Of a stretch of 64,000 nucleotides of DNA, positions 28,731-48,394 are shown piece after piece (positions within the stretch are counted from its first letter, which is position 1; every line of letters starts with the position of its first letter). Origin of the DNA: Acidimicrobiales bacterium (GTDB taxonomy: Bacteria; Actinomycetota; Acidimicrobiia; Acidimicrobiales; Acidimicrobilacustridaceae); the NCBI GenBank assembly GCA_025455885.1, contig JALOLR010000008.1, forward strand, positions 62,001 through 126,000, read 5' to 3'. Under the pieces are notes generated by a model. It saw only the letters and a list, made by a program, of their open reading frames with translations. It was not told where the DNA came from and searched no databases. The translations under genes and the position numbers were made by a program.

Positions 28731-28766
28731 TGAGCGGGATCTGAGGTCCGGATGAGAAGTTCCTCA
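28731..28766. promoter_or_regulatory. Operator array A: TGAG repeats with 11-bp period
   Basis: On the plus strand TGAG occurs at 28731, 28742 and 28753, exactly 11 bp apart. The last copy is followed by CTCA at 28763, giving the centre TGAGA-N5-CTCA. Seen from the minus-strand gene at 28676 the array reads CTCA-N7-CTCA-N7-CTCA. Direct repeats spaced by one helical turn are what tandem OmpR/PhoB-type regulators bind. The array lies between the APH-like gene stop and the Pro/Ser-repeat gene. Confidence 0.75.
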
Positions 28767-30020
28767 GACCGCACCCGAGATGGCGGGGAACATCCGGTCG
28801 AGCCCCGCACGGCGTTCGGCGACGGCGAGCACGGCGTCGGTCAGCTCGCGCCACCCACGGATGCGACTGCGGAACGGGCCGGTGGCGAGGCCGACCAGCA
28901 CGGCGGCCACCGTGACGTCGAGCGCCTCGGTGCCGTGGATCGCCGCGAACCGTGCACCGAGCTCGTCGATGTGGGGGCGCAGCCGGGCGGCGATCTCGTC
29001 GCCGGACGTGAGGGCCCGGTACTCCAGGTGGCCGAGCAGCACGGCCGGGTCGTCGAGCGGGTCGCCGGGTCCCAGGTCGTCGAGATCGATGATCCCGGTG
29101 AGGGTGCCGGTGTCGTCGACGAAGAGCTGGGCTTCGTGCAGGTCGCCGTGGACGACCGGTCCGCGGCGCCGACCGACCTGCTCCCGCGCGTCCTCGAACC
29201 TCGACCCGAGCGGGGCGAGCCGCCCGGCCAGATCGGGGGCGACGGAGACGAGGAACGCGACATGCGCGAGGGCATCGTGCGTCCTCGGCGCCCGGCCGGA
29301 TGTCACCGGCCCACCGGGGGCCACCGCGCCGAGCCGGCGGAACAGGTCGGTGAACGACTCTGCGTCGGGCCAACGATCGCGGCCCGACCGGATGTGGTCG
29401 CGCAGCGTGGCACCCGGCATCGCCGACAGGAGCAGCAGCCCTTCGTTGGTGTCGACATGGAGCACCTCGGGCACGCGGAGGCCCGCCGCCCGCAGTGCGT
29501 CGTGGCGGGCGGCGACGCCGGCGACCTCGGATGGCGGCAACGCCTTGAGATAGGAGATCCGTCCGCGGGCGTCGGTGACCCGGGCCACGGCCCGTCGGGT
29601 CGGGTGGTAGGCCACCACCTCGACCTGCAGCGGGCCGGCCACCACCCCGTCGAGACGGCGGGTGAGCTCGGCCGGCGTGGTGGCGACGGGGAGACCGGTG
29701 ACGACCGGGTCGAACGGCCAGCGCCAGACGCAGGCGTCGAGGACCGAGGTCGGCGTCGCCGCGGTGACCGCCACGGTGCCGGGGAGCGGCGCGCCGGGGG
29801 TCGCCGCGGCGAGGAGCACCTCTGAGGTCCGGCCCGTCGGCCAGGTGACGTCGCAGTCGTAGCGGGCCACCATCTCCCGGCCCGGCAGGTAGTGGACCTC
29901 GGTGCAGGTGGCGTGGTGGATCGTCCCGCCGGCGGCGGTGACCGCCGGTCGGAGGACGTCGATGGCGGCGTCGCCGTACAGCTCGCGGGCGGCGGGCAGG
30001 TGGGGGTCGTCGATGTGCAC
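28764..30020 (-). CDS. Phosphotransferase (APH-like) family protein in the envelope regulon
   Basis: A 418-aa protein with an APH-type kinase fold in its C-terminal two thirds. VLHVDTNEGLLLLSAMPG lies near 215, the complete catalytic loop VVHGDLHEAQLFVDD near 297 (HGDLHxxQ), and the metal motif GIIDLDDLGPGDPLDDPA near 317. The N-terminal about 170 residues are less conserved. It may phosphorylate a sugar or other small hydroxyl compound. I place the start at GTG 30020 because the upstream ATG at 30080 falls inside operator array B. With 30020 the array ends 23 nt upstream. No clear Shine-Dalgarno sequence is present. It is divergent from the two-component operon, with which it shares array B. 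Confidence 0.8.
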   Translation of the reverse strand: MHIDDPHLPAARELYGDAAIDVLRPAVTAAGGTIHHATCTEVHYLPGREMVARYDCDVTWPTGRTSEVLLAAATPGAPLPGTVAVTAATPTSVLDACVWRWPFDPVVTGLPVATTPAELTRRLDGVVAGPLQVEVVAYHPTRRAVARVTDARGRISYLKALPPSEVAGVAARHDALRAAGLRVPEVLHVDTNEGLLLLSAMPGATLRDHIRSGRDRWPDAESFTDLFRRLGAVAPGGPVTSGRAPRTHDALAHVAFLVSVAPDLAGRLAPLGSRFEDAREQVGRRRGPVVHGDLHEAQLFVDDTGTLTGIIDLDDLGPGDPLDDPAVLLGHLEYRALTSGDEIAARLRPHIDELGARFAAIHGTEALDVTVAAVLVGLATGPFRSRIRGWRELTDAVLAVAERRAGLDRMFPAISGAV

Positions 30021-30043
30021 GGGTGCAGGTTCGGTGTTCCCGA

Positions 30044-30101
30044 TGAGGCCGCAGTGAGAGCGAGATGAGAGCCTTCTCATGTGCCTCTCACGTCCGGCTC
30101 A
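30044..30101. promoter_or_regulatory. Operator array B: bidirectional TGAG/CTCA repeats with 11-bp period
   Basis: TGAG occurs at 30044, 30055 and 30066. The mirrored CTCA occurs at 30076, 30087 and 30098. All intervals within each half are exactly 11 bp. The centre is the palindrome TGAGA-N4-TCTCA (30066-30079). Each half points CTCA-N7-CTCA-N7-CTCA towards its own gene: the minus-strand APH-like gene (start 30020) and the plus-strand operon that encodes the sensor kinase and regulator (start 30140). This is strong evidence for autoregulation by an OmpR-family protein. Confidence 0.8.
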
Positions 30102-30139
30102 CCGGCGCCGCCGAGGGTTTCCGACGTGAGGTCCCGACG

Positions 30140-30496
30140 GTGACGCGTGCGCTGCGCTACGGCGCCGTCGTGGTCGTGGCCGTGCTGGCGGCAGGGCTGA
30201 CCGCCGGGGCGCTGAGGTGGGTCGCCGGGGGCGACGGCCCCGTCCTGCCGACGCCGATCGTGCTCGACTCACCCGCACCGACCCCCGCTCCGGCCACCGT
30301 CGCCCCACCCGACCCGATCGAGGTGCGCCCTGCGCCGGATCTGCTCACGGAGCCGGCCCCGCCCCTCCCGGCACCGCCATCCCCTGCGCCGCCGCTCCCG
30401 GCACCGCCACCCCCACCTCCGCCGGATCCCGGCGACGACGGCGACGACGGCGACGACCCCGAGGACCAGGGCGACGACGAGAGGGACGACAGCTGA
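30140..30496 (+). CDS. Small membrane-anchored Pro-rich protein with acidic tail
   Basis: A 118-aa hypothetical protein. Residues 8-30 are a hydrophobic segment (AVVVVAVLAAGLTAGALRWVAG) serving as signal anchor. A Pro/Ala-rich stretch (about 45-98, with runs of consecutive prolines) follows, and the tail (99-118) is almost pure Asp/Gly/Glu. The likely location is outside the membrane, with the acidic end possibly binding cations. The GTG start at 30140 has GAGGT 8 nt upstream and lies 38 nt after operator array B. Its stop overlaps the sensor kinase start by one base (TGATG), so it is translationally coupled to the kinase and may modulate it. Confidence 0.75.
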   Translation: MTRALRYGAVVVVAVLAAGLTAGALRWVAGGDGPVLPTPIVLDSPAPTPAPATVAPPDPIEVRPAPDLLTEPAPPLPAPPSPAPPLPAPPPPPPPDPGDDGDDGDDPEDQGDDERDDS

Positions 30497-31953
30497 TGAG
30501 CACCGCGGGGCTGTCCCGCCTCTGGTCCTCGGCTCGGGCCCGGGTGCTGATCGGCGCCCTGGCGCTGCTGGCGGCGACGATCGCCGTGTCGATCCTCGTC
30601 GACCGGGCCGTGCTCGTGGCTCGGCTCGACGATCGCCTCGACGCGGAGCTCGTCCAGGAGATCGACGAGTTCCGGCGACTCGTCGGGGAGGTCGACCCAG
30701 CGACCGGCGCGCCGTTCGGTTCCGACCTCGAGGCCATCGCCGATGCCTTCCTCGCCCGCAACGTCCCGGGCGAGGACGAGGTGTTCCTGGCCATCGTGGA
30801 CGGCGCACCCTACGGGCGGAGCGCCGACGCGCCCTACCCGATCGAGGACCTGACGCCCCTGGTGGACACATGGGCCACGACCGCGTCACCCCAGCTGCGC
30901 ACCGACGACACGCCCGCCGGCGCTCTGCGCTCCCTCGCGGTGCCGGTGGTCACGGGGGACGGCGAGTCCCGGGGGGCCTTCGTCGTGGCCCGGTTCCCCG
31001 CCGGCGAGCGCGCCGAGATCGACGATGCCGTCCGGGTCGCCGCCGTCGTCGGGGCGGCGGCGTTCGTGGTCGCCGCCCTGGCGGCGTGGGCGATCGCCGG
31101 GAGGGTGCTGTCGCCGCTGCGGAACCTGGCCACCGCCGCCGGGGAGATCGACGAGCGGGACCTGAGCCACCGCATCGACGTCGAGGGCTCGGGCGAGCTC
31201 GCCGACCTCGGCCAGCGGTTCAACGCCATGCTCGACCGGGTCGAAGGAGCCTTCGACACCCAGCGCGCCTTCCTCGACGACGCCGGCCACGAGCTGCGCA
31301 CCCCCATCACGGTGCTGCGCGGACACCTCGAGCTCGTCGAGCCCGGCGCGCCGCTGCCCGCCGACACCCGGGCGCTGCTGCTCGACGAGCTCGACCGCAT
31401 GAGCCGGATCGTCGAGGACCTGGTCACCATCGCCAAGGCCGAGCGCCCGGACTTCGTCACCCCGGCCCCCGTCGACGTCGCCGACCTCACCCTCGACATC
31501 GCCGAGAAGGCCCGGGCCCTGGCGCCACGCGACTGGCAGGTCGCCGCCGACGCCGTCCTGGTCGCCGACCTCGATCGCCAGCGCATCGTCCAGGCCTGGA
31601 TGAACCTGGCCCGCAACGCCGCCCAGCACACCGCCGAGGGCGACACGATCACCGTGTTCGGCCGCGAACGCGACGGCGCGCTCGAGCTCGGGATCGCCGA
31701 CACGGGCGAGGGCGTCGCCGACGCCGACCGGGCCCGGGTGTTCGAGCGCTTCGGTCGCGGGGCGTCGGCGCGCCGCACGAGCGCCGACGGCGCCGGGCTC
31801 GGCCTGGCCATCGCCGACGCGATCGCCGTCGCGCACGGCGGATCGATCCGACTCGACGACACCCCCGGCGGAGGCGCCACCTTCACCATCGAGCTCCCGC
31901 TCGACACCGAGCCCACACCGACCGAACCGGAGGACGCATGGCCCGCATCCTGA
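30496..31953 (+). CDS. Sensor histidine kinase (MprB/TrcS-like layout)
   Basis: A 485-aa membrane sensor kinase. Transmembrane segments lie at about 18-38 and 181-203, enclosing an extracytoplasmic sensor region of about 140 residues with many acidic residues. A HAMP linker (about 204-255), a HisKA domain with phospho-acceptor His265 in FLDDAGHELRTP, and an HATPase domain with NLARNAAQH, DTGEGVADADR and GAGLGLAIADAIA follow. It should autophosphorylate and pass phosphate to the next gene product. It overlaps the upstream Pro-rich gene by 1 bp and the regulator gene by 16 bp, so the three are one operon under operator array B. Confidence 0.93.
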   Translation: MSTAGLSRLWSSARARVLIGALALLAATIAVSILVDRAVLVARLDDRLDAELVQEIDEFRRLVGEVDPATGAPFGSDLEAIADAFLARNVPGEDEVFLAIVDGAPYGRSADAPYPIEDLTPLVDTWATTASPQLRTDDTPAGALRSLAVPVVTGDGESRGAFVVARFPAGERAEIDDAVRVAAVVGAAAFVVAALAAWAIAGRVLSPLRNLATAAGEIDERDLSHRIDVEGSGELADLGQRFNAMLDRVEGAFDTQRAFLDDAGHELRTPITVLRGHLELVEPGAPLPADTRALLLDELDRMSRIVEDLVTIAKAERPDFVTPAPVDVADLTLDIAEKARALAPRDWQVAADAVLVADLDRQRIVQAWMNLARNAAQHTAEGDTITVFGRERDGALELGIADTGEGVADADRARVFERFGRGASARRTSADGAGLGLAIADAIAVAHGGSIRLDDTPGGGATFTIELPLDTEPTPTEPEDAWPAS

Positions 31954-32597
31954 TCGTGGAGGACGAGGACCGCATCGTGTCGTTCCTGGCCCGCGGCCTC
32001 GAGGCCAACGGGCACTCGACGATGGCGGTGGGCGACGGCGTCACGGCGGCAGCCGTGGCCCGCGACACCGACTTCGACCTCTTGATCCTCGACGTCGGAC
32101 TCCCCGGCCAGGACGGCTTCGCGGTGCTGGCCGAGATCCGCAGGCGCGGCGAGCGCCTCCCGGTGATCGTACTGACCGCTCGAGACCAGACCGCCGACAC
32201 CGTGGCCGGCTTCGACGCCGGAGCCGACGACTACGTCACGAAGCCGTTCCGCTTCGAGGAGCTCCTCGCTCGGGTGCGGGCCCGCCTCCGCGACCAGGGC
32301 ACCACCGAGGCCACGATCCTGCAGGCCGGCGCATGCCTGCTCGACCTCCGGCGCCGGACGGCCGGGGTCGACGGCCGCACGGTCGAGCTGTCGGCCCGGG
32401 AGTTCGCGCTCGCCGAGACCTTCTTCCGCCACCCGGGCCAGGTGCTCTCACGAGAGCAGCTGCTGTCGATGGTCTGGGGCTACGACTTCGAACCCGGGTC
32501 GAACATCGTCGAGGTGTACGTCGGTTACCTGCGCAAGAAGCTGGGCGCCGACCTGATCGAGACGGTGCGGGGCATGGGCTACCGGCTCACGGCCTGA
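31938..32597 (+). CDS. OmpR-family response regulator
   Basis: A 219-aa transcription factor. The receiver domain (1-115) has the acidic pair Glu8-Asp9-Glu10, phospho-acceptor Asp52 in LLILDVGLPG, and Lys102 in VTKPF. The winged-helix domain (about 125-219) ends with ETVRGMGYRLTA. GGAGG lies 5 nt before the ATG, inside the kinase gene. Tandem winged-helix proteins of this family bind direct repeats spaced about 11 bp, exactly the design of arrays A-C nearby, so it is the best candidate for their regulator. Its last 12 codons, stop and following 7 bp are duplicated at 41374-41419. Confidence 0.95.
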   Translation: MARILIVEDEDRIVSFLARGLEANGHSTMAVGDGVTAAAVARDTDFDLLILDVGLPGQDGFAVLAEIRRRGERLPVIVLTARDQTADTVAGFDAGADDYVTKPFRFEELLARVRARLRDQGTTEATILQAGACLLDLRRRTAGVDGRTVELSAREFALAETFFRHPGQVLSREQLLSMVWGYDFEPGSNIVEVYVGYLRKKLGADLIETVRGMGYRLTA

Positions 32598-32674: not shown

Positions 32675-33369
<695 letters not shown>

Positions 33370-33373
<4 letters not shown>

Positions 33374-35898
33374 CTCGGCACCCCCGCCGGCGGGCGGCCC
33401 TCCGCCGGCTCGACCAGCGGGAGGGTCAGGACCACGGTGAGGCCGCCGCCGGGGGTGTCCTCGACGGTGAGCTCACCGCCCATGGCCTGGGTGAACCCTC
33501 GAGCCACCGCCAGTCCGAGGCCCACTCCGGTGGGGCTCGAGTCCCCCAGTCGCTGGAACGGATCGAACATGCGCTCGCGGTGGTCGGCATCGATCCCCGG
33601 GCCCTGGTCGGCGATCCGGACGATCGCTCGACCCCCGTGGGCGGCGGCCTGCACCCGCACCGGCGACGTGGGCGGGGCGTGCTCGACGGCGTTGGCCACC
33701 AGGTTGGCGACGACCCGTTCGAGGAGACCCGCGTCGGCGAACGCCGTCGGGAGGTCCGCTCCGATCTCGACGACCACGTTGGCGGTCGGTCCGGAGAGGC
33801 TGTCGAGGGCGGCGGCGATGACCTCCTCGAGGCCGACGGGACGCGACGTGAACTGCACGACCCCGGCCTCGATCCGGCTCATGTCGAGAAGGTTCGCAAC
33901 GAGGCGGTCGAGGCGGTCGGCCTCCTCGTCGATCGTACGGGCGAACTCCTTGCGCTCGGCCCCCGTCCATTCCACGTCGTCCTGGAGGAGGCTGGTGGCG
34001 GAGGCCTTGATCGAGGCCAAGGGGCTGCGCAGATCGTGGGACACGGCCCGGAGGATGGCGGTGCGCAGCTCGTCGGCTCGGCCGCGCACGGACGCCTCAC
34101 GCGCGAGCCGTTCGAGGTCGCGTCGTTCGAGCGCGTCTGCGAGGCGGTTCGTGAAGGCGTCGAGGAGGCGACGATCCTCTCCGGAGAGCCGACCGGGGAC
34201 GATCACGAGCGTCATGCCCTGGCCGATCTCGATCCGCTCTCCTGCGTCGACGGTGTCGGGCGGGTCGGCCCCGTCGACGGCCGCTCGTTCCCACTCGCCC
34301 TCGGAGGTGCGAGCGAACAGGGCGATCGCGTCCTGTCCGAAGGTGATGCGGAGGTGGGCCAGCATGGCAGCGAGGGGGTCCTGATCAGCAGACAGGCGGG
34401 CCGCGGCGACGGCCAGGACCTCGGCCTCGGCACGTGCCCGCTGTGCCTCGGCCGAGTGCCGGGCGCTCTGGCCCACGAGCACGCTGACCAGCGCCCCGCT
34501 CGCGATGAACACCACGATCGCCACGATCTGGTCGGCGTCGTCGATGACGAACGTCCCGTACGGCTGCGTGAAGAACCAGTTGGTCGTCGCCGAGGCGAGC
34601 AGTGCGACGGCCAGCGCCGGTCGGAGCCCGCCGATCGCCGCCACGATGGTGACCAGCAGCAGGTAGAGGAGCAACACCGTGGGGAGCCCGACGGTGTCAC
34701 GCACCACGGCGAGCCCAGCCGTCAGGAGCGGCAGGCCGATGAGAGCGACGCCCCAGCCGACCACCTGTCGGCGCCGGTTCAGCGGGGACCGTCGTCGTGG
34801 CGCTTGCGGCAACCGCCGTGCCTCGTCGCCCTCGTAGGAGATCACGTGGACGTCGATGTCGCCGGAGAGGCGGATCGCCTTGTTGATGACCGAGCCCCGC
34901 ACGAGCTCGGTCGTGCGGCGACGGCGCGTCGAGCCGAGGACCAGCTGCGTGGCCTTGACGGACCGGGCGAAGGCGGCGAGGCCGTCCGCCACGTCGTCGG
35001 CCACGACCTCGTGGTAGGTGCCTCCGAGATCGCAGAGCAGTTGTTGGCCGTCGAGGAGCGCCTGGCTGACACCGGAGGCGAGCCCCTCTCCCGCCTTGAC
35101 GTGAACCCCGATCAGGTCGGCGTGGGTTCGCTGCGCCATCCGCGCGGCGCGACGTATGAGGTGCTCCCCGCTGGGCGCGCCGGTGACGGCGACGACCACC
35201 CGCTCACGGGTCTCCCACGTCCCGGTGATCCCGTGGTCGTCCATGTAGCCCTGGAGGGCGTCGTCGACCTTGTCCGCCACCCAGAGCAGCGCCAGCTCGC
35301 GGAGCGCCGAGAGGTTGCCCGGCCGGAAGTAGTTGGTGAGGGCGGTGTCGACCTTGCCGGCGTCGTAGATGTTGCCGTGGGCCATTCGGCGACGCAGGGC
35401 CTCGGGGGTCATGTCGACGAGCTCGACCTGGTCGGCCTCGCGGACCACCCTGTCGGGGACGGTCTCGCGTTGGTGGATCCCGGTGATCGTCTCGACGACG
35501 TCGTTCAGCGACTCGAGGTGCTGGATGTTGACCGTGGAGATGACGTCGATGCCGGCGTCGAGCAGGGCGTGCACGTCCTCCCATCGCTTCTCGTGAAGCC
35601 CCCCGGGCGCGTTCGTGTGGGCGAGCTCGTCGACCAACGCGACAGCCGGTCGACGGGCCAGGACCGCGTCGAGGTCCATCTCCTCGAAGGTCGTTCCGCG
35701 GTAGTCGACGCTGCGCCGTGGCACGGTCTCCAGATCGCCGATCTGCTCCTCGGTGTTGGCACGACCGTGGGTCTCGACCACCCCGATCACGACGTCGGTG
35801 CCCCGTGCGGCCCGTCGGCGGCCCTCGCTGAGCATGGCGAACGTCTTGCCGACGCCCGGTGCGGCGCCGAGATAGATGCGGAGGTGGCCGCGGCTCAC
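33370..35898 (-). CDS. kdpD: Sensor histidine kinase KdpD
   Basis: An 842-aa turgor/potassium sensor kinase. The N-terminal KdpD domain has the Walker-type motif GAAPGVGKT at 11-19 and DELAHTNAPG near 91. A universal-stress-like domain follows (about 230-360, with VTGAPSGEHLIRRAARMA). The four-helix DUF4118 membrane region spans about 385-480, then a GAF-like region, a HisKA domain with His621 in AVSHDLRSPLASIK, and an HATPase domain (NLVANAVEHA, DQGPGI, GVGLGLAVARG). Length is near the family norm. It starts with GTG and lies 22 bp downstream of kdpC. It phosphorylates KdpE and is known in other bacteria to respond to low K+ and, through its N-terminal part, to second messengers. Confidence 0.96.
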
Positions 35899-35920
35899 GA
35901 CCGGAGTGTACGGAGCGCCC

Positions 35921-36502
35921 TCACGGCCGGCCCCCCGCTTCGTCGACCGCGAGGTTGAGGAGCACGACGTTCACCCCGGGGTCGCCGAGCACTCCGAGCG
36001 GCCGCTCGTCGGTGTTGTCGTCGATGAGGTCCAGGACCTGGTCCACGGAGAGCCCCCGGGCCTCGGCGACTCGGGGCGCCTGGAGCCGAGCGTTCGCCAC
36101 TGAGATGTGAGGGTCGAGGCCCGATGCCGATCCGGTGACCGCATCGATCGGCACCGCGACCTCGGCGGGCAACCCGTTCCGAGCACGGTAGGCATCGACC
36201 CGTTCCCTGACCGCGTCGATCAGCTCGGGGTTGGTCGGGCCGAGGTTCGATCCCGAGCTCGAGGTCGCGTCGTAGCCCTCACCGGCCGAGGAGGGTCGTG
36301 GCTCGAACCACTCGGGCCCGTCGAAGGGCTGGCCGATCAACTCCGACGCCACGGGTGTCCCGTCGATCTCGACGAGCGAGCCGTCGGCCTGGCGCGTGAA
36401 GGCCAGCTGCGCCACACCGGTCACGACCAGGGGGTAGGCGACACCGAGGAGGACCGTCATCGTCAGGAGCACGAGGAGGGCGGGCAGCAGCTGACGGCGC
36501 AT
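35921..36502 (-). CDS. kdpC: Potassium-transporting ATPase subunit C
   Basis: A 193-aa single-span membrane subunit that stabilises KdpFABC. One N-terminal transmembrane helix (about 8-28, [21 protein letters not shown]) is followed by an extracytoplasmic domain. The domain has the family motifs [19 protein letters not shown] near 53-71, [13 protein letters not shown] near 82, and SGLDPHIS near 127. Its ATG overlaps the kdpB stop by one base (TGATG), so expression is coupled. The size matches typical KdpC proteins (about 190 aa). Confidence 0.96.
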
Positions 36503-38589
36503 CAGGAGACCCCCAGGGCGGTGAGGAGCAGGTCGATGAGCTTGATGCCCACGAACGGAGCGACCAGGCCTCCGAGTCCGTAGACCGTGATGTTGCGGCG
36601 CAGCACGTCGGCCGCGCCCACGGCGCGGAACCGCACGCCGCGCAGCGCGAGGGGGATGAGGGCCACGATGATCAGCGCATTGAAGATGACCGCCGAGAGG
36701 ATGGCCGTGCGGGCGGACTCCAGTCGCATCACGTTCAGCGCCTCGAGCTCCGGGTAGGCGACGAGGAACATCGCCGGGATGATCGCGAAGTACTTGGCGA
36801 CGTCGTTGGCGATCGAGAAGGTGGTGAGCGATCCACGGGTGATGAGCAACTGCTTGCCGATCTCGACGATCTCGATGAGCTTCGTGGGATCGGAGTCGAG
36901 ATCGACCATGTTCCCGGCTTCCTTGGCAGCCTGGGTGCCGGTGTTCATCGCCACGCCGACATCCGCGGCGGCCAGCGCAGGCGCGTCGTTGGTGCCGTCG
37001 CCTGTCATCGCCACCAGCCGTCCCCCGCTCTGCTCCCGGCGGATGAGCGTCATCTTGTCCTCGGGCGTCGCCTCGGCGAGGTAGTCGTCGACGCCTGCCT
37101 CTCCGGCGATCGCCTGCGCCGTGAGCGGGTTGTCACCCGTGATCATCACCGTGCGGATCCCGAGTGCCCGCAAGTCGTCGAACCGCTCACGCATCCCGGG
37201 CTTCACCACGTCCTTCAAGTGGACGACCCCGAGCACCCGCTCGCCATCGGCCACGACGAGCGGCGTTCCACCGCTGTTCGAGATGTCCGTGACGAAGGAG
37301 AGCAGCTCGGGCGGGACCTCACCCCCCTGCTCGGTGACCCAACGGCGGACCGAGTCGGTGGCGCCCTTGCGGATCCGACGCCCGTCGGGCAGGTCGACAC
37401 CGCTCATCCGGGTCTGTGCGGTGAAGGGAACGAGCTCCGAAGCCGTCGTGCCGGGGATCTCTACGTCGTAACGGTCCTGGACGAACTGCACGATCGAACG
37501 CCCCTCGGGGGTCTCGTCGGCCAGGCTGGTGAGAAGCGCCGCAACGGCCATCTCCCGCTCGTCGACGCCGTGCACCGGGTCGAGAGCGGCAGCCTGGCGG
37601 TTCCCGAAGGTGATCGTGCCGGTCTTGTCCAGGAGGAGCGTGGACACGTCCCCCGCAGCCTCCACGGCCCGACCGCTCATGGCCAGGACGTTGCGCTGGA
37701 CGAGCCGGTCCATGCCGGCGATCCCGATGGCCGAGAGCAGGCCTCCGATGGTCGTCGGTATGAGGCAGACCAGCAGCGCGGTGAGCACCACGAGACTCTG
37801 CTCGTCCCCCGAGTAGATGGCGAAGGGCTGGAGCGTCACGACGACGAGCAGGAAGATGATCGTCAATCCCGACAGGAGGATGCTGAGCGCGATCTCGTTG
37901 GGGGTCTTCTGCCGCTCGGCGCCCTCGACGAGCGCGATCATCCGGTCGAGGAAGGACTCGCCGGGCCGTGCCGAGATGCGCACGACGATGCGGTCGGACA
38001 GGACGGTCGTGCCCCCGGTGACCGCTGACCGGTCACCGCCCGACTCCCTGATGACCGGGGCGGACTCGCCGGTGATCGCCGACTCGTCGACGCTGGCGAT
38101 GCCGTCGATGACGTCTCCGTCGCCGGGGATGACCTGGCCGGCGACGACCTCGACCTCATCCCCCACCTCGAGGGCGGTGGAGGGCACCTGTTCGAGGCGC
38201 CCGTCGCGCCCCCGCCGGTTGGCGGTCGTCTCCTGGCGGGTCTTGCGAAGTGAGGCCGCCTGCGCTTTCCCTCGCCCTTCCGCCATGGCCTCGGCGAAGT
38301 TGGCGAACAGAACCGTGAACCACAGGAAGACGACGACGAGCCCGGTGAACAGCGTTCCCTCCCCGGTGTCGTCACCGAGCTGGGTGAAGAAGAGGAGGCT
38401 GGTGACTGCTGCTCCAACCTCGACCACGAACATCACCGGGTTGCGGGCCATGGCGCGCGGGTCGAGCTTTCGGAAGCTGTCGAAGAGCGCGGTGCCGATG
38501 ATCTGGCCGTCGAAGAGCGCTCTCGTCGACGACCGGTTCGGGTCGTGCGTCGCCCCCCGTTCGGCGACAGGGTCGGAGGTGAGTGCCAC
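36502..38589 (-). CDS. kdpB: Potassium-transporting P-type ATPase subunit B
   Basis: A 695-aa P-type ATPase catalytic subunit that powers high-affinity K+ uptake. The actuator-domain motif TGES is at 173-176, the phosphorylated Asp321 is in DKTGT, and [13 protein letters not shown] is in the hinge of the P domain near 525. Transmembrane segments lie at about 55-70, 83-100, 238-258, 265-290 and in the C-terminal part (about 590-690), as in other KdpB proteins. It lies 9 bp after kdpA and overlaps kdpC. All active-site residues I checked are intact, so the pump should be functional. Confidence 0.97.
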
Positions 38590-38598
38590 GTAGAGCTC

Positions 38599-40335
38599 CT
38601 AGGACATCATCAGCTGCTCGACCACCGGGCCGAGAGCGAGCGCAGGGAAGAAGGTGAGCCCGGCCACGATGAGCACCACGCCCGTGACGAGCCCGGCGAA
38701 GATCGGACCGTCGGTGGGGAACGTCCCGACCGTCACCGGCACGCGCTGCTTGCGGGCCAGGCTCCCGGCGATCGCCAGCGCCGGGATGATCAGCGCGAAC
38801 CGACCCGCCAGCAGGGCGATGCCCCCGCTCGTCGTCATCCACGGGGTGTCCGCGGTGAAACCGGCGAACGCCGAACCGTTGTTGTTGCCCTGCGACGCGA
38901 AGGCGTAGAGCACCTCGCTCAACCCGTGCGGTCCGGGATCCTGGATCGAGGTGTCGAGCACGGTGCCCAGGCGGATGCTGATCGCCGAGAGGGTCAGGAC
39001 CGTGAGCGGCATCACGGCGATGAAGAGCACGACGAGCTTCATCTCGGTGGCCTGGACCTTCTTTCCGAGGTACTCCGGCGTCCGCCCGACCATCAGCCCG
39101 GCGATGAACACGGCGAGGAGGGCGTAGACGAGCAACCCCATCAGTCCCACACCGACGCCTCCGGGGCTGACCTCGCCGAGGAGCATGTTGACCATGGCCA
39201 CGCCACCGCCGGCCGGCGTCATGGAGTCGTGCATGCAGTTGACCGAGCCGTTGGAGGTCCCGGTCGTGCTCCCCGCCCAGAGCGCACAGGTGGCGGGCCC
39301 GAAGCGCACGTCCTTGCCCTCCATGTTCCCGCCGGGCTGTGTGGCGACCACGCTCTGGTCGGCGCCCACGTCCGCGAGCAACGGGTTGCCACTCGTCTCC
39401 GCCGCGGTGGCGACGAGCACCGATCCCAACCACAGGACCACCATCACCGCCAGCAGCACGCTGCCCTGCCGACGGTCCTTCGCCATCCGTCCGTAGGCCA
39501 GCGGGATCGCCAGCGGGAGGGCGACGATCGCCCACGTCTGGACCAGGTTCGACCATGCGTTCGGGTTCTCGAACGGGTGAGCGGAGTTGACGTTGAAGAA
39601 GCCACCCCCGTTGGTCCCGAGCTGCTTGATGGCCACCTGCGATGCAGCCGGCCCGCCGGGGAGCTCCTGGGCACCGCCGGCGACCGCGATCACCTCGGTC
39701 GTACCCGAGAAGTTCTGGATGACACCCTGGCTGACGAGCACCACGGCGACGAGGAGCGAGAGCGGCACGAGGATTCGCACGACCACCCGGGTGAGGTCGA
39801 CCCAGAAGTTGCCGAGGGTGGCCGAGCCCCGACGGGTCAGTCCTCTGATGACGGCGACGATCACCGCCATCCCGGCGGCGGCCGACACGAAGTTCTGCAC
39901 CGTGAGCCCCAGCATCTGGGAGAGGTGGCTCATGGTCGTCTCGCCGCCGTAGGCTTGCCAGTTCGTGTTCGTGACGAACGAGATGGCGGTGTTGAACGCC
40001 ACTCCGGGGCTCACCGCCTCCTGCCCGTCCGGGTTGAGCGGGAGCCAGGCCTGGAACCGGAGGAGCGCGTACAGGGCGAGGACGGACAGGGCGCTGAAGG
40101 CCAGCAGGGAGAGGGCGTAGGTGGTCCAGCGCTGTTCTGATCGCGGGTCGATGCGGCACACCCGGTAGATCAGCCGCTCGACGGGCAGGAACAGCCGGTC
40201 GCCGGGCGTGGCCTGAGGCACACCGTGGTGCTCGGGGTCGCCGAACACCCTCGCCAGGTAGCGACTCAACGGGGGCACCGTGACCGCAAGCACTGCGAGG
40301 AAGAGGACGAGCTGGAAGAGCGCCGATGGCGACAT
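38599..40335 (-). CDS. kdpA: Potassium-transporting ATPase subunit A
   Basis: A 578-aa channel-like subunit with about ten transmembrane helices, related to the Trk/Ktr superfamily. Selectivity-filter-type segments are visible: [16 protein letters not shown] near 113-128, [23 protein letters not shown] near 229-251, and [15 protein letters not shown] near 474-488. Length and motif order match typical KdpA. Its ATG overlaps the kdpF stop by one base (TGATG). It forms the K+ pathway of the KdpFABC complex in the cytoplasmic membrane. Confidence 0.97.
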
Positions 40336-41429: not shown

Positions 41430-43247
41430 TCACCTGACCGTCGACCGCCGCGGCACGAGGAACAGCCGGCGGTCGACGTGGTCGCCGTAGAACCACATCA
41501 GTCCGGCGACACAGGACCCCACGAAGCCTGCCGCGACGGCGCTCGCCCAGAGGCCGGCGTCGAGGAACACGGCCGCCCATCCGAACTGGTAGCAGACGAA
41601 CAGCACCTCGGCGGCGACGTAGGGCGGGTGCACCCGGACCTTCGCCCGCCGTGGGGGCCGGTCGCCGCCCGAGGCCGCGGTGCGGGTGGCCCCCGTGTCC
41701 GCGACGGTCACGGTGGCGACCTTCGGGGTGCGCTCGAACTCGCTGTGCATCGGCCCGAAGAGGCCTTCGGCGAAGGCGCTGAACTGGTGGGGCAGCATGC
41801 CGGTGTTGATGACGGCGTAGGGCACCACCCGGGTCATCCGCCGGGCCAGCACCGACCACGTCCGGGGGCCGGGGTAGGAGCGCCGGGTCTCGATGGTGGC
41901 GACGACGGTCGCCGCCGTCAGCCACAGGACCATCGGGGCCACGTAGACGCCGAGCCCGACGCCGACGCCGAACGTCCCGAGCCACACGCCGTTCCAGATG
42001 CCGATCGGCAGCACCAGGAGCCAGAGCCCCCACAACGCCCACTGCCACGGGATGCACATGTGGTACAGGAGGTGGGCCCGGCGCAGCGGCGTGGTCTCGT
42101 AGCTCCGGAGCAGTGTGCGTAGGTGGATGCGTTGGAGCTGCATCCATCCCTGCGTCCAGCGCTTCTGCTGGGCCTTGTAGGCCGTGTAGGTCGCCGGCAG
42201 CTCGGAGGGGGCCACCACCTCCTTGACGAAGCGTGTCCGGTACCCGGCGAAGAGGTGCCGGAAGCTCAGCTCGCAGTCCTCGACGAGGCTCGCCGCCCGC
42301 CAGCCGCCGGCCCGCTCGATCGCCTCGGCCCGCCAGATCCCCGCCGTCCCGGTGAAGTTGACGAAGCCCCACTTCTCGGACCGCCACGACATCTGGACCG
42401 TGTGGTGGTCGTCGACCCAGAGCGACTGGGCACGCGTGAGCGGCGACTCGTCGTGGTTGAGGTGGCCCCACTGGGTCTGCACGAGCGCCAGGTCGTCGAT
42501 CCAGCGGCCCTCGTCGTCGAAGAAGTAGCCGACCGCCCCGGCCAGGAAGTCCGGTCGGGGCAGGAAGTCCGAGTCGAAGATCACGATCAGGTCGGCGGAC
42601 GTCATGCGCCGACCCACCTCGAGCGCCCCCGCCTTGTAGCCGTCGCGGTTCGACCGGCGGACCAGCCGGCAGTCGACGCCCGAAGCCCGCATCCGGTCGC
42701 ACACCCGCTCGACGAGCGCTCGGGTGTCGGGGTCGGTCGAGTCGTCGAGCACCTGGACCTCGAGGCGATCGCGCGGCCAGTCGAGCGAGCAGGCCGCGTC
42801 GATCGCGCGCTCGGCGACGGCGTCCTCGTTGAACATCGGGAGCTGCACGCACACCGTCGGCAACGCCGCCGGCAGACGACCGGGCCGGTTCGTCGCCCGT
42901 CCCCGCCAGAAGTAGCCGACCCGTTCGATCAGCCCGGCGAGGAGGAACGCCCCGATGGCGGCGACCGGCAGGTGGAACGCGGCCACCAGGACCCACCACC
43001 AGCCGGGCCCGACCTCGGCCAGGTCGACCGATCCGTTCGACACGGCCAGGGCCAGGCCGGTGCCGGCGGCGAGAGCGAGACCCAGGTTGGGGAGCCACCA
43101 CCGCCCGCCGAGCGAGCCGGGCCGAGCGGCCGCGGTCGCGGGACGCCCTTCGCCGGTGGGGTCGTCGGTGGGGTCGTCAGGGGGCGGGTCGGGTGGGAGC
43201 CCTCGTCCGGACGTGATGACCTCGTCGACGACCTCGTGGAGTGCCAT
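41430..43247 (-). CDS. Membrane glycosyltransferase family 2 (cellulose synthase/CslA-like)
   Basis: A 605-aa processive-type GT2 enzyme. Two N-terminal transmembrane helices lie at about 48-70 and 82-105. The catalytic domain has VCVQLPMFNED, DDSTD near 167, the metal-binding DxD in FDSDF near 217, the acceptor Asp in EDCEL, and QQKRW near 335. Several C-terminal membrane helices follow. The layout matches beta-glucan/mannan synthases that polymerise and export polysaccharide. I choose ATG 43247, not the ATG at 43280, because 43280 lies inside operator array C. From 43247 the array begins 25 nt upstream, matching array B and the APH-like gene. It is therefore a probable regulon member. Confidence 0.9.
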   Translation of the reverse strand: MALHEVVDEVITSGRGLPPDPPPDDPTDDPTGEGRPATAAARPGSLGGRWWLPNLGLALAAGTGLALAVSNGSVDLAEVGPGWWWVLVAAFHLPVAAIGAFLLAGLIERVGYFWRGRATNRPGRLPAALPTVCVQLPMFNEDAVAERAIDAACSLDWPRDRLEVQVLDDSTDPDTRALVERVCDRMRASGVDCRLVRRSNRDGYKAGALEVGRRMTSADLIVIFDSDFLPRPDFLAGAVGYFFDDEGRWIDDLALVQTQWGHLNHDESPLTRAQSLWVDDHHTVQMSWRSEKWGFVNFTGTAGIWRAEAIERAGGWRAASLVEDCELSFRHLFAGYRTRFVKEVVAPSELPATYTAYKAQQKRWTQGWMQLQRIHLRTLLRSYETTPLRRAHLLYHMCIPWQWALWGLWLLVLPIGIWNGVWLGTFGVGVGLGVYVAPMVLWLTAATVVATIETRRSYPGPRTWSVLARRMTRVVPYAVINTGMLPHQFSAFAEGLFGPMHSEFERTPKVATVTVADTGATRTAASGGDRPPRRAKVRVHPPYVAAEVLFVCYQFGWAAVFLDAGLWASAVAAGFVGSCVAGLMWFYGDHVDRRLFLVPRRSTVR

Positions 43248-43271: not shown

Positions 43272-43307
43272 TGAGCCCACCGTGAGAGCGGCCTGAGAAC
43301 GCCCTCA
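43272..43307. promoter_or_regulatory. Operator array C: TGAG repeats with 11-bp period
   Basis: TGAG occurs at 43272, 43283 and 43294, exactly 11 bp apart. CTCA at 43304 gives the same TGAGA-N5-CTCA centre as arrays A and B. Towards the minus-strand glycosyltransferase gene it reads CTCA-N7-CTCA-N7-CTCA. On the far side the mirrored half is decayed (CTCG at 43315, no match at 43326). Confidence 0.78.
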
Positions 43308-46088: not shown

Positions 46089-46805
46089 TCAGGTGGGGAC
46101 GCGACCCCGGTAACGGTATCCGAACCCCCGCACGGCCTCGATCGGCGAGGTGTCGGGGTCCTGCCAGCCGAGACGCTTGCGCAGGCGGAGCACCGCGAAC
46201 TTCACCCGTTCGGGTCCGACCCCGAGGGGGTCGGACCAAGCGTGCTCGAGGAGCTGCTCCCGGGAGAGCACCTGGCCGGGGTGACGCAGGAACGTGACGA
46301 GCAGCTGCCACTCCGTGGGCGACAGGTCGACCGGCTCGTCGGCGAGGTGGACGGTCTTCGCCCGGAGGTCGACCACGAGGTCGCCGTCGGCGATCCGCTC
46401 GACGACGTCGGCCCCACCGCCGGTCGTGGAGCGGCGCAGGAGGGCGATCACCCGAGCGAGGAGCTCGGCGTTCGAGAACGGCTTGGTGACGTAGTCGTCG
46501 GCCCCCAGGAGAAGGGCGTCGACCTTGTCGCGCTCGAGGCCCCGGGCGGTGAGGACGAGCACCGGGAGGTCGGTCATGTCCCGAAGCCGCCGCAGGACCT
46601 CCATGCCGTCGAGGTCCGGGAGGCCGAGGTCGAGGATCACGGCGTCGGGCCGGCTCTCGAACGCCCGCCGCAGCGCCTCGCGTCCGGAGGCGGCCAGGAG
46701 CACGTCGAGTCCGGCACGACGCAGCACCTCGGCGAGCACGGCGCGGATGTCGTCGTCGTCGTCGACGACGAGCACCCGCCGGGCGGGCCCGGTGATCGCC
46801 GTCAC
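46089..46805 (-). CDS. OmpR-family response regulator (second system)
   Basis: A 238-aa transcription factor. The receiver domain has a run of aspartates at 15-19, phospho-acceptor Asp59 in VILDLGLPDLDG and Lys108 in VTKPF. The winged-helix domain contains LSPTEWQLLVTFLRHPGQVLSREQLL and ends with RGFGYRYRG. Its GTG start overlaps the kinase stop (GTGA), so the pair is translationally coupled. The 11-bp-phased GCACC repeats next to this pair are its most likely binding sites, including one set in front of its own operon. Confidence 0.94.
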   Translation of the reverse strand: MTAITGPARRVLVVDDDDDIRAVLAEVLRRAGLDVLLAASGREALRRAFESRPDAVILDLGLPDLDGMEVLRRLRDMTDLPVLVLTARGLERDKVDALLLGADDYVTKPFSNAELLARVIALLRRSTTGGGADVVERIADGDLVVDLRAKTVHLADEPVDLSPTEWQLLVTFLRHPGQVLSREQLLEHAWSDPLGVGPERVKFAVLRLRKRLGWQDPDTSPIEAVRGFGYRYRGRVPT

Positions 46806-48394
46806 GACGGCTCCGGGGAGAGGTCCGCCATCTCGCAGCGCACCCGGGTCCCTCCCCCGGGGGAGTCGTCGATGGTGACCGTCCCACCGTGGAGGCCGAC
46901 GAGGCCCTCCACGATGGCCAGGCCCAGGCCGGCGCCGGGGACACCGGCGCGCTCGGCGTCGGGGGTGCGCACGAAGCGGCCGAGCACCGAAGCGCGCTGG
47001 TCGGCGGGGATGCCGGGGCCGTGGTCGACGACGTCCAGGAACCACCGGCTGCCGACGCGGTCGGCCCGTACCGTCACGTCGCACCCGGGCGGCGAGAACT
47101 TGACGGCGTTGTCGACCAGGTTCTCGACGATCTCGGTGAGGCGCCGGCGGTCGGCGGTGACCACCAGCCCCTCCCCGACCTCCACCCGGACGGTGACCGA
47201 GCGGCGTGCGGCGGTCGAGGCGAACGACTCGGCAGCTTCGGCGAGGAGCGGGGCGACACGGATCTCGGTGGGCTCGAGGGTCAGCATCCCGGCGTCGAGA
47301 CGCCCGACGAGGAGGAGGTCCTCCACCATGGAGCGCAGGCGATCGACGTTGCGCCCGATGATCCCGAGGTGGCCCATCGCCGTCTCGGGCACCTCCGGGT
47401 CGGACTGCAACAGCTCGGTCGCGCCGGCGATCGCGGTGAGCGGGGTGCGCAGCTCGTGCGACACGCCGGCCACGAAGTCGTTGCGCAGCCGGTCGTAGGC
47501 CTCGAGTCGTTCCGCCTGCTCCTCGGCCACCCGGCGGGCCTGCTGTTCGAGCTCGAGCAGCGCCTGCTGGCGGCGTTCTTCGTCGCGTCGCGCCGTGTCG
47601 TCGGTGAAGAGCCAGAGCCGGCCGTGGTCGGCGTCCGCCCCGCGGATGGGGATGACCTCGACGCGGACCTCGCGACCGGTCGACAACACGAACGGGAAGA
47701 CCGAGCGGGTCCGGTGGTCCACCTCGGCGACCCTCGGCAGCGGCGTCGGACCCGCCAACCCGGTCGCCAGCCGAGCCACCAGCTCGTCGCGGTGCGATCC
47801 GACGAACGCCGCGGCCGGGCCGTCGACGAGGAACATCTCGCAGAGGCGCTCGTTGGCGAACAGCACCACCCCCGATGCGTCGTCGATGAACGCACCCTCG
47901 CCGAAGCTCGCGACCAGCGCCTCGAGCCGGGCCTGTGACTCGAGGAGGGCCTGGGCGCGCTCCTCGGACTCGGTGACGTCGCGGGAGAAGGCCACGCGGC
48001 CCTGCACGCCGGGGACGTCGTGCAGGTCGGCGACGACGGTCTCGAGCCACCGCCACTCGCCCGTTCCGGAACGGACGCGGTAGCGGAACGCCTTCGTGGG
48101 ATCGAAGGGCTCGCCACGTGCTTCCCGCCCGGCGAGGTCGGATCGGTGGGCGTGGATCCGTTCCCGGTCGTCGGGGTGCACGAACAGCCAGCCGTCGGCG
48201 GGCTTGCGGAAGCTGTCGTCGAACCCGAGGAGCCGCAGGCCCGCCTGGTTGACCATCTGCTGGCGACCGTGGGCGTCGGTGATGGTGATGATCTCGGGGG
48301 CCCGCTCGAAGAGGACCTCGAGGTCCGGTGCGAGGGGCAGCACGACCGGGGTGGATCCTGCCGGCCCCTCCCCGGTGGTGGGCTCGTCACCCAT
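46802..48394 (-). CDS. Soluble PAS-domain sensor histidine kinase
   Basis: A 530-aa kinase without transmembrane helices, so it should sense a cytoplasmic signal. Two PAS modules are visible: about 25-145 (LEVLFERAPEIITITDAHGR, with a PAC-like end WRWLETVVADLHD) and about 150-270 (FIDDASGVVLFANERLCEMF). A coiled linker (275-305) leads to HisKA with His313 in GVSHELRTP and an HATPase domain (NLVDNAVKFSPPG, DHGPGIPADQR, GAGLGLAIVEG). GGAGGGG lies 5 nt before the ATG. It is divergent from the DUF2252 gene and shares with it a GCACC operator array. Confidence 0.93.
   Translation of the reverse strand: MGDEPTTGEGPAGSTPVVLPLAPDLEVLFERAPEIITITDAHGRQQMVNQAGLRLLGFDDSFRKPADGWLFVHPDDRERIHAHRSDLAGREARGEPFDPTKAFRYRVRSGTGEWRWLETVVADLHDVPGVQGRVAFSRDVTESEERAQALLESQARLEALVASFGEGAFIDDASGVVLFANERLCEMFLVDGPAAAFVGSHRDELVARLATGLAGPTPLPRVAEVDHRTRSVFPFVLSTGREVRVEVIPIRGADADHGRLWLFTDDTARRDEERRQQALLELEQQARRVAEEQAERLEAYDRLRNDFVAGVSHELRTPLTAIAGATELLQSDPEVPETAMGHLGIIGRNVDRLRSMVEDLLLVGRLDAGMLTLEPTEIRVAPLLAEAAESFASTAARRSVTVRVEVGEGLVVTADRRRLTEIVENLVDNAVKFSPPGCDVTVRADRVGSRWFLDVVDHGPGIPADQRASVLGRFVRTPDAERAGVPGAGLGLAIVEGLVGLHGGTVTIDDSPGGGTRVRCEMADLSPEPS

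Follow-up and report, generated by a model that had tools for sequence, protein, structure and literature searches.

The window, i.e. the whole stretch of 64,000 nucleotides analysed here from the genome of an Acidimicrobiales bacterium, contains an APH-like kinase gene that diverges from an operon for a small protein (small protein 1), a histidine kinase and an OmpR-family response regulator, with the six-site tetramer array A2 between them; a second small protein gene follows the APH-like gene (these genes are called the cassette below), and a glycosyltransferase gene lies farther away (table 1). Receiver and Trans_reg_C domains in the regulator as well as HisKA and HATPase_c domains in the kinase place this pair among the OmpR/PhoB-family two-component systems. 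The APH-like protein scores 32.6 bits against the APH(3') family NF033068, the cut-off of which is 205, and belongs to the broad family PF01636 only. Its mechanically called open reading frame starts at 30080, inside A2; we put the start of the gene at GTG 30020, because its orthologs are predicted to start at the same place. Neither small protein has a Pfam match.

Further signalling genes are found in the surroundings. A KdpD-type kinase and an OmpR-type regulator (32675-40335) adjoin the cassette and are convergent with it, with open reading frames beyond them that by eye resemble KdpC, KdpB and KdpA. A second kinase–regulator gene pair, with a recognition helix unlike the cassette type, lies at 46089-48394.

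Table 1. Arrays, candidate promoter elements and genes, in positions of the window.
Feature	Position	Strand	Basis or remark
A2, six-site operator (putative)	30044..30101	.	sequence; same array in genome G093
A1, four-site operator (putative), faces small protein 2	28731..28766	-	putative -10 GATGAT, 28719-28714
A3, four-site operator (putative), faces glycosyltransferase	43272..43307	-	putative -10 GACCGT, 43260-43255
Putative -10 of small protein–kinase–regulator operon, GAGGGT	30113..30118	+	register, A at +13 and T at +17
Putative -10 of APH-like gene, GAACCT	30027..30032	-	operator register
Small protein 2, exported type, 136 aa	28266..28676	-	relatives have comparable small proteins there
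APH-like kinase gene, 418 aa from GTG 30020	28764..30020	-	PF01636, 47.8 bits
Small protein 1, 118 aa, one hydrophobic segment then Pro/Asp-rich tail	30140..30496	+	GTG 30140, chosen start
Histidine kinase	30496..31953	+	HAMP, HisKA, HATPase_c
OmpR-family response regulator, proposed operator reader	31938..32597	+	Response_reg, Trans_reg_C; recognition-helix comparison
Membrane family 2 glycosyltransferase, proposed third target	41430..43247	-	PF13632 and others

Architecture of the arrays

A2 consists of three TGAG tetramers (30044-30047, 30055-30058 and 30066-30069) and three CTCA tetramers (30076-30079, 30087-30090 and 30098-30101), which follow each other in 11-bp steps within each half and at 10 bp between the central two. 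The mirror axis lies at 30072.5 and the centre is the palindrome TGAGA-GCCT-TCTCA (30066-30079); half-sites repeated at 11 bp are a trait of the OmpR/PhoB family. A preliminary description of this DNA had reported the six tetramers of 30044-30101, which can indeed be read directly in the sequence, and had placed them on one face of the helix, in agreement with simple arithmetic, by which the site centres fall within 1.5 bp at 10.5 bp per turn. Sequence comparison also upholds its assignment of one half to the APH-like gene and of the other to the regulator's own operon.

An important question is whether such an array could have arisen by chance. The spaced pair TGAG-N7-TGAG occurs eight times in the 64-kb window, where 1.21 occurrences are expected and none of 100 shuffles reaches eight, and all eight fall into three arrays, i.e. 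A2, 28731-28766 (A1) and 43272-43307 (A3). The palindrome alone is weaker evidence, with three places at up to one mismatch against 0.80 expected and three shuffles that reach this number. Three TGAG in a row at 11 bp are found four times in the entire genome (3,285,463 bases on 33 contigs), always within the three operators of the window and never with the reversed control; in the family sample, where 26 matches in 14 of 37 other genomes compare with 12 for the reversed control, this triple is unspecific by itself. A dyad with one direct repeat was counted 29 times for TGAG, as against zero for every one of the 11 permuted words, in a total of 309,227 bases, which comprise the window plus cassette and array loci and thus DNA selected for carrying the operator or its system. 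Chance as the origin of A2 is rejected by these shuffle, reversed-pattern and permuted-word controls.

With up to three mismatches, the six-site pattern occurs in only three of 395 genomes of the class, namely the genome of the window, G093 and G580, and all six sites are exact in the first two, which are two families apart. The G580 match (locus L260, G580:C65:21148-21271) is a perfect 11-bp tandem repeat that imitates the array at three mismatches and is unrelated; a tandem-repeat artefact as the origin of A2 was likewise rejected.

The putative working unit of these arrays is TGAG-N6-CTCA-N7-CTCA-N7-CTCA-N12-ANNNT, the last part of which would be a -10 element. By sequence, A2 consists of two four-site units with one common palindrome, which face the APH-like gene and the small protein–kinase–regulator operon, respectively. 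A1 and A3, on which the preliminary description was silent, are sister arrays with the -10 register of A2. The full promoter pattern, searched with up to three mismatches in the 3.29-Mb genome, has four matches, all exact and all in the window, and none with the reversed control; A1, A2 and A3 are the only such operators found there. With up to one mismatch, the three-site core has 12 matches in this genome (reversed control, one): four are exact, three more overlap A3 and five have one mismatch. None of these five is recovered by the full promoter pattern at up to three mismatches, by which they were discarded as further operators. Among the 298 genomes of the order sample, the four-site unit has 20 matches in 12 genomes, and none when the pattern is read backwards. 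Genome G060 has three near-identical four-site arrays (L081, L089 and L093), on three contigs other than that of its kinase.

Promoter register

The window, the order sample and loci from a GTDB scan supplied 96 different four-site operators for alignment on the last CTCA, with only identical copies and operators too near a locus end left out; some of the genomes are related. An A stands at +13 in 81% and a T at +17 in 89% of these operators, and ANNNT starts at +13 in 75 of the 96, as against a mean of 2.48 and a maximum of 7 (one base on) for other offsets. This ANNNT is probably a -10 element, which would lie 11 bases away from the operator and direct transcription from about +24; the 96 operators show no conspicuous -35-like column next to it. 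ATG or GTG codons between +18 and +39 are commonest at +24 (12 cases) and +25 (15 cases), which suggests leaderless starts.

All four promoter directions of the window carry a -10 in register. Transcription of the small protein–kinase–regulator operon would start at about 30125 and that of the APH-like gene, probably leaderless, at 30020, where its GTG codon begins, and the glycosyltransferase ATG at 43247 is one base past the start deduced in the same way. Small protein 2 would be transcribed from about 28707. Across cassette loci, 26 of the 32 palindromes with a further CTCA were in register, compared with 2 of the 36 without, of which many are these palindromes taken in the opposite reading direction. 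A reverse -10 accompanies four of the seven operators with a far-side TGAG, among which A2 and its G093 counterpart count twice each, versus 2 of 89 operators without; against this regularity, the plus side of the G093 array has its -10 one base out of register. The operator thus stands at a fixed distance from the presumptive -10 and over the -35 region, as expected of class II activation.

These data also bear on the earlier proposal of a six-site layout that drives two promoters at once. Since each half ends at its own -10, in the register of 75 of the 96 operators, control of both promoters at once is the natural reading. The six-site layout is present as described, but the working unit appears to be a one-way four-site element, two of which share the palindrome of A2. 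The original observation is confirmed and its main idea holds, with the interpretation partly supported by the sequence comparisons.

Co-occurrence with the cassette

Taking the operator scan and the kinase search, the sizes and genome labels of which agree, as one sample of 298 genomes of the order, with the kinase called present at E <= 1e-60, we found the kinase in 24 genomes. Ten genomes have both operator and kinase, 2 only the operator, 14 only the kinase and 272 neither (Fisher P 9e-11). In the two with an operator and no kinase, the distance between the array and another OmpR-type regulator is 2.0 kb (G079) and 7 bases (G130). As evidence to the contrary, the exact four-site pattern is missing from 14 of the 24 genomes with the kinase. 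Upstream of the kinase, the TGAG-N6-CTCA palindrome is present in either orientation at 16 of 28 loci, or at 16 of 23 if loci with at least 1.1 kb of upstream DNA are counted, but the exact three-site core, i.e. with a further CTCA 11 bp towards the kinase, occurs at 12 of the 28 only, and in G022 the extended arm of the unit points away from the kinase.

In relatives, the five genes of the cassette recur, arranged in one direction or split. Four loci (L096, L118, L129 and L131) carry TGAGA-N4-TCTCA in the interval that separates the regulator gene from the APH-like gene. In six loci (L112, L115, L118, L126, L128 and L131) and in the window, an array overlaps the end of the APH-like gene and precedes the gene for the second small protein. 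The gene layout of G093 matches that of the window, with a six-site array and one sister array in corresponding places. Overall, then, the four-site unit is a candidate promoter operator that keeps a fixed distance to the -10, precedes the cassette transcription units and co-occurs with the cassette system.

The kinase of the window is 65-66% identical to those of G093 and G164, from another family, but 45% identical to the best-matching one from a genome of the same genus (loci L031, L055, L054 and L032). This pattern may stem from horizontal transfer of the cassette or from different paralogs.

A GTDB scan with an 18-base version of the operator yielded at least 119 stretches, 80 of which were analysed as loci. 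By record title, these 80 comprise 70 from Actinomycetota, 7 from Chloroflexota and 3 others. A profile of 12 cassette regulators finds matches in 41 of the 80 loci (of at least 119 stretches), 37 of them scoring at least 225 bits and 28 at least 300 bits. As the genome of the window encodes 13 regulators with this type of DNA-binding domain, about 3.4% of 8-kb stretches would arithmetically be expected to contain one; this base rate derives from one genome, yet even at 10% the tail probability of 41 in 80 is 2e-20. On the other side, 39 of the 80 loci show no cassette-type regulator, though many of the arrays are near a locus edge. Genes downstream of the operators in these loci encode small acidic exported proteins and APH-like proteins (by eye) and, confirmed by Pfam in one fragment each, a Streptomyces carbonic anhydrase and a Brachybacterium phosphoketolase. 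Five Streptomyces loci (L146, L174, L193, L197 and L208) have the operator flanked by the regulator gene and a gene for carbonic anhydrase, the latter identified by Pfam in L146 and by eye in the rest.

The candidate reader and its kinase

Regulators near the operator mostly share the recognition helix SN[VI]V[DE]VY[VI]xYLRRK, and those beside other kinases in the same genomes mostly read FTNTVRVTVGTLRRK at this place. The helix alone is insufficient, since three loci (L044, L047 and L072) have a same-helix regulator and no exact core in the DNA examined. In family f48, three regulators next to kinase orthologs (L069, L070 and L071) have the altered helix SKKLEVY, and no TGAG operator was found in the two with upstream DNA. 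An altered f48 operator, sought in L069, L070 and L255-L257, was not upheld, as an ATGG/CCAT ladder is present in G126 (L070 and L255) and was not seen in G158 (L256). The helix comparison, with its few cases, agrees with the cassette regulator as the probable reader.

The outer domain of the kinase, predicted from 22 sequences with a mean pLDDT of 93.4, probably adopts a Cache/PAS-like fold, with mixed matches. The best VIA-align rows for this model include WalK at Z 10.0 to 11.3, the top one being an integrative model, and CusS at Z 9.4; no Foldseek match was obtained at E 0.001 or below. Structures of metal sensors are among the structural matches, i.e. CzcS with Foldseek and CusS with VIA-align. 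Across the 22 sequences, no His, Cys or Met in the sensor domain is near-invariant, and metal sensing was set aside for want of a conserved ligand residue.

Discussion

The architecture of A2 belongs to a known kind, elements of which are found in three OmpR-family systems. According to the portion of the source consulted, PhoP of Mycobacterium tuberculosis recognizes 7-bp direct repeats with a 4-bp spacer and the motif TCACAGC (PMC4832192). Its 11-bp direct repeats, bound head-to-tail and cooperatively with up to three and four motifs, resemble the arms of A2, whereas the motif differs and that portion gives no palindrome (PMC4832192). The E. coli CusR box, AAAATGACAAnnTTGTCATTTT as quoted in PMC11195947, matches the centre of A2 in its 5-4-5 geometry, with TGACA-N4-TGTCA as compared to TGAGA-N4-TCTCA, and in lying between a pair of divergent operons that includes the regulator's. 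Unlike A2, it differs by one base pair per half, serves copper and silver genes and, in the form quoted, is without 11-bp direct repeats (PMC11195947). A2 shares the 5-N4-5 palindrome with CusR, CopR and CzcR, but the regulator reaches 200 bits against TIGR01387 (cut-off 279.2) and the kinase 199.2 bits against TIGR01386 (cut-off 292.55).

Both elements are combined in the AgrR box of Cupriavidus metallidurans, where, as described in the extracts used here, an inverted repeat with N4 is joined by in-phase direct half-sites upstream or downstream, repeat and half-sites both contributing, and where the OmpR-family regulator is a proposed type II activator with positive autoregulation (PMC7380067). 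AgrR also has a divergent intergenic target; it departs from A2 in its half-site (ATTACA rather than TGAGA), in its imperfect and fewer direct repeats and in its metal-resistance targets, and these extracts contain no fully mirrored six-site array (PMC7380067). MprA of Corynebacterium glutamicum belongs, in the sections consulted, to the OmpR-family systems of actinobacteria; it is positively autoregulated and has envelope targets, but its published motif TKTTAAGAAM is unrelated to TGAGA-N4-TCTCA (PMC12113857), and an MprA-type site was excluded by comparison with the consensus here. In the literature searched we found no description of the motif, the cassette or the exact two-way form.

With PhoP-like repeats, a CusR-like palindrome and the precedent of AgrR for combining both, we read A2 as probably a bidirectional class II activator operator of the adjacent OmpR-family two-component system. 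With transcription counted from +24, the four sites fall near -59 to -56, -49 to -46, -38 to -35 and -27 to -24; the three on the promoter side are direct repeats at 11 bp and the far pair forms the palindrome. The phosphorylated regulator would bind the central TGAGA-N4-TCTCA as a head-to-head pair. Further subunits would then line up head-to-tail on both arms, one every 11 bp, and those closest to the promoter, near -37 and -26, would contact RNA polymerase instead of a -35 element. Because both arms of A2 are complete, one nucleation site would feed two promoters, such that the kinase–regulator operon and the APH-like gene would rise together, with positive autoregulation. A1 and A3 would act likewise in one direction, on small protein 2 and the glycosyltransferase. 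More speculatively, and in our estimate with odds against it, A2 may exemplify the composite operator of a widespread, unnamed signalling cassette: the palindrome would nucleate a head-to-head regulator pair, head-to-tail extension in both directions would switch two opposed promoters in step, and the exported small proteins would act back on the kinase.

The same regulator could, in contrast, repress both promoters, with the site nearest each -10 blocking polymerase until signalling releases or rearranges the regulator. Polymerase would cover the last site (about -27 to -24), which fits this idea, but the lack of a -35-like column in the 96 operators, and the fact that a site occupies the -35 place as in AgrR-type class II activators, make repression unlikely. 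It is similarly improbable that the palindrome and the nearest direct repeat suffice, with the outer sites of A2 as remnants or chance and a single promoter controlled. Relatives often have two or three exact sites only with the -10 still in register, as such a minimal site would predict; yet all six sites are exact in both G093 and the window's genome, two families apart, and a -10 is present on both sides, even if one side in G093 is one base off.

That some other regulator of the cell reads the arrays would be conceivable in a genome with 13 regulators of this DNA-binding type, one of them encoded by the neighbouring KdpE-like gene (32675-33373). We give this very little weight, since the operator co-occurs with the cassette kinase, the three arrays are confined to the cassette region in their own genome, and the KdpE-like regulator is disfavoured by its different recognition helix. 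As an inverted repeat the palindrome might also act in RNA, as a hairpin or terminator; this we regard as hardly credible, because it lies upstream of both deduced transcription starts and a hairpin leaves both the direct repeats and the -10 register unexplained.

If A2 is indeed a two-way class II activator operator, it would offer a natural bidirectional promoter for studying how symmetric and tandem assemblies of OmpR-family regulators are combined. The operator code, which by pattern spans Acidimicrobiia, Nocardioides, Streptomyces, Arthrobacter, Jiangella, Chloroflexota and others, would place an APH-like kinase and small exported proteins that lack annotation under a common signal. This code is testable, and it may allow the targets of such systems to be read from sequence in the genomes of uncultured bacteria.
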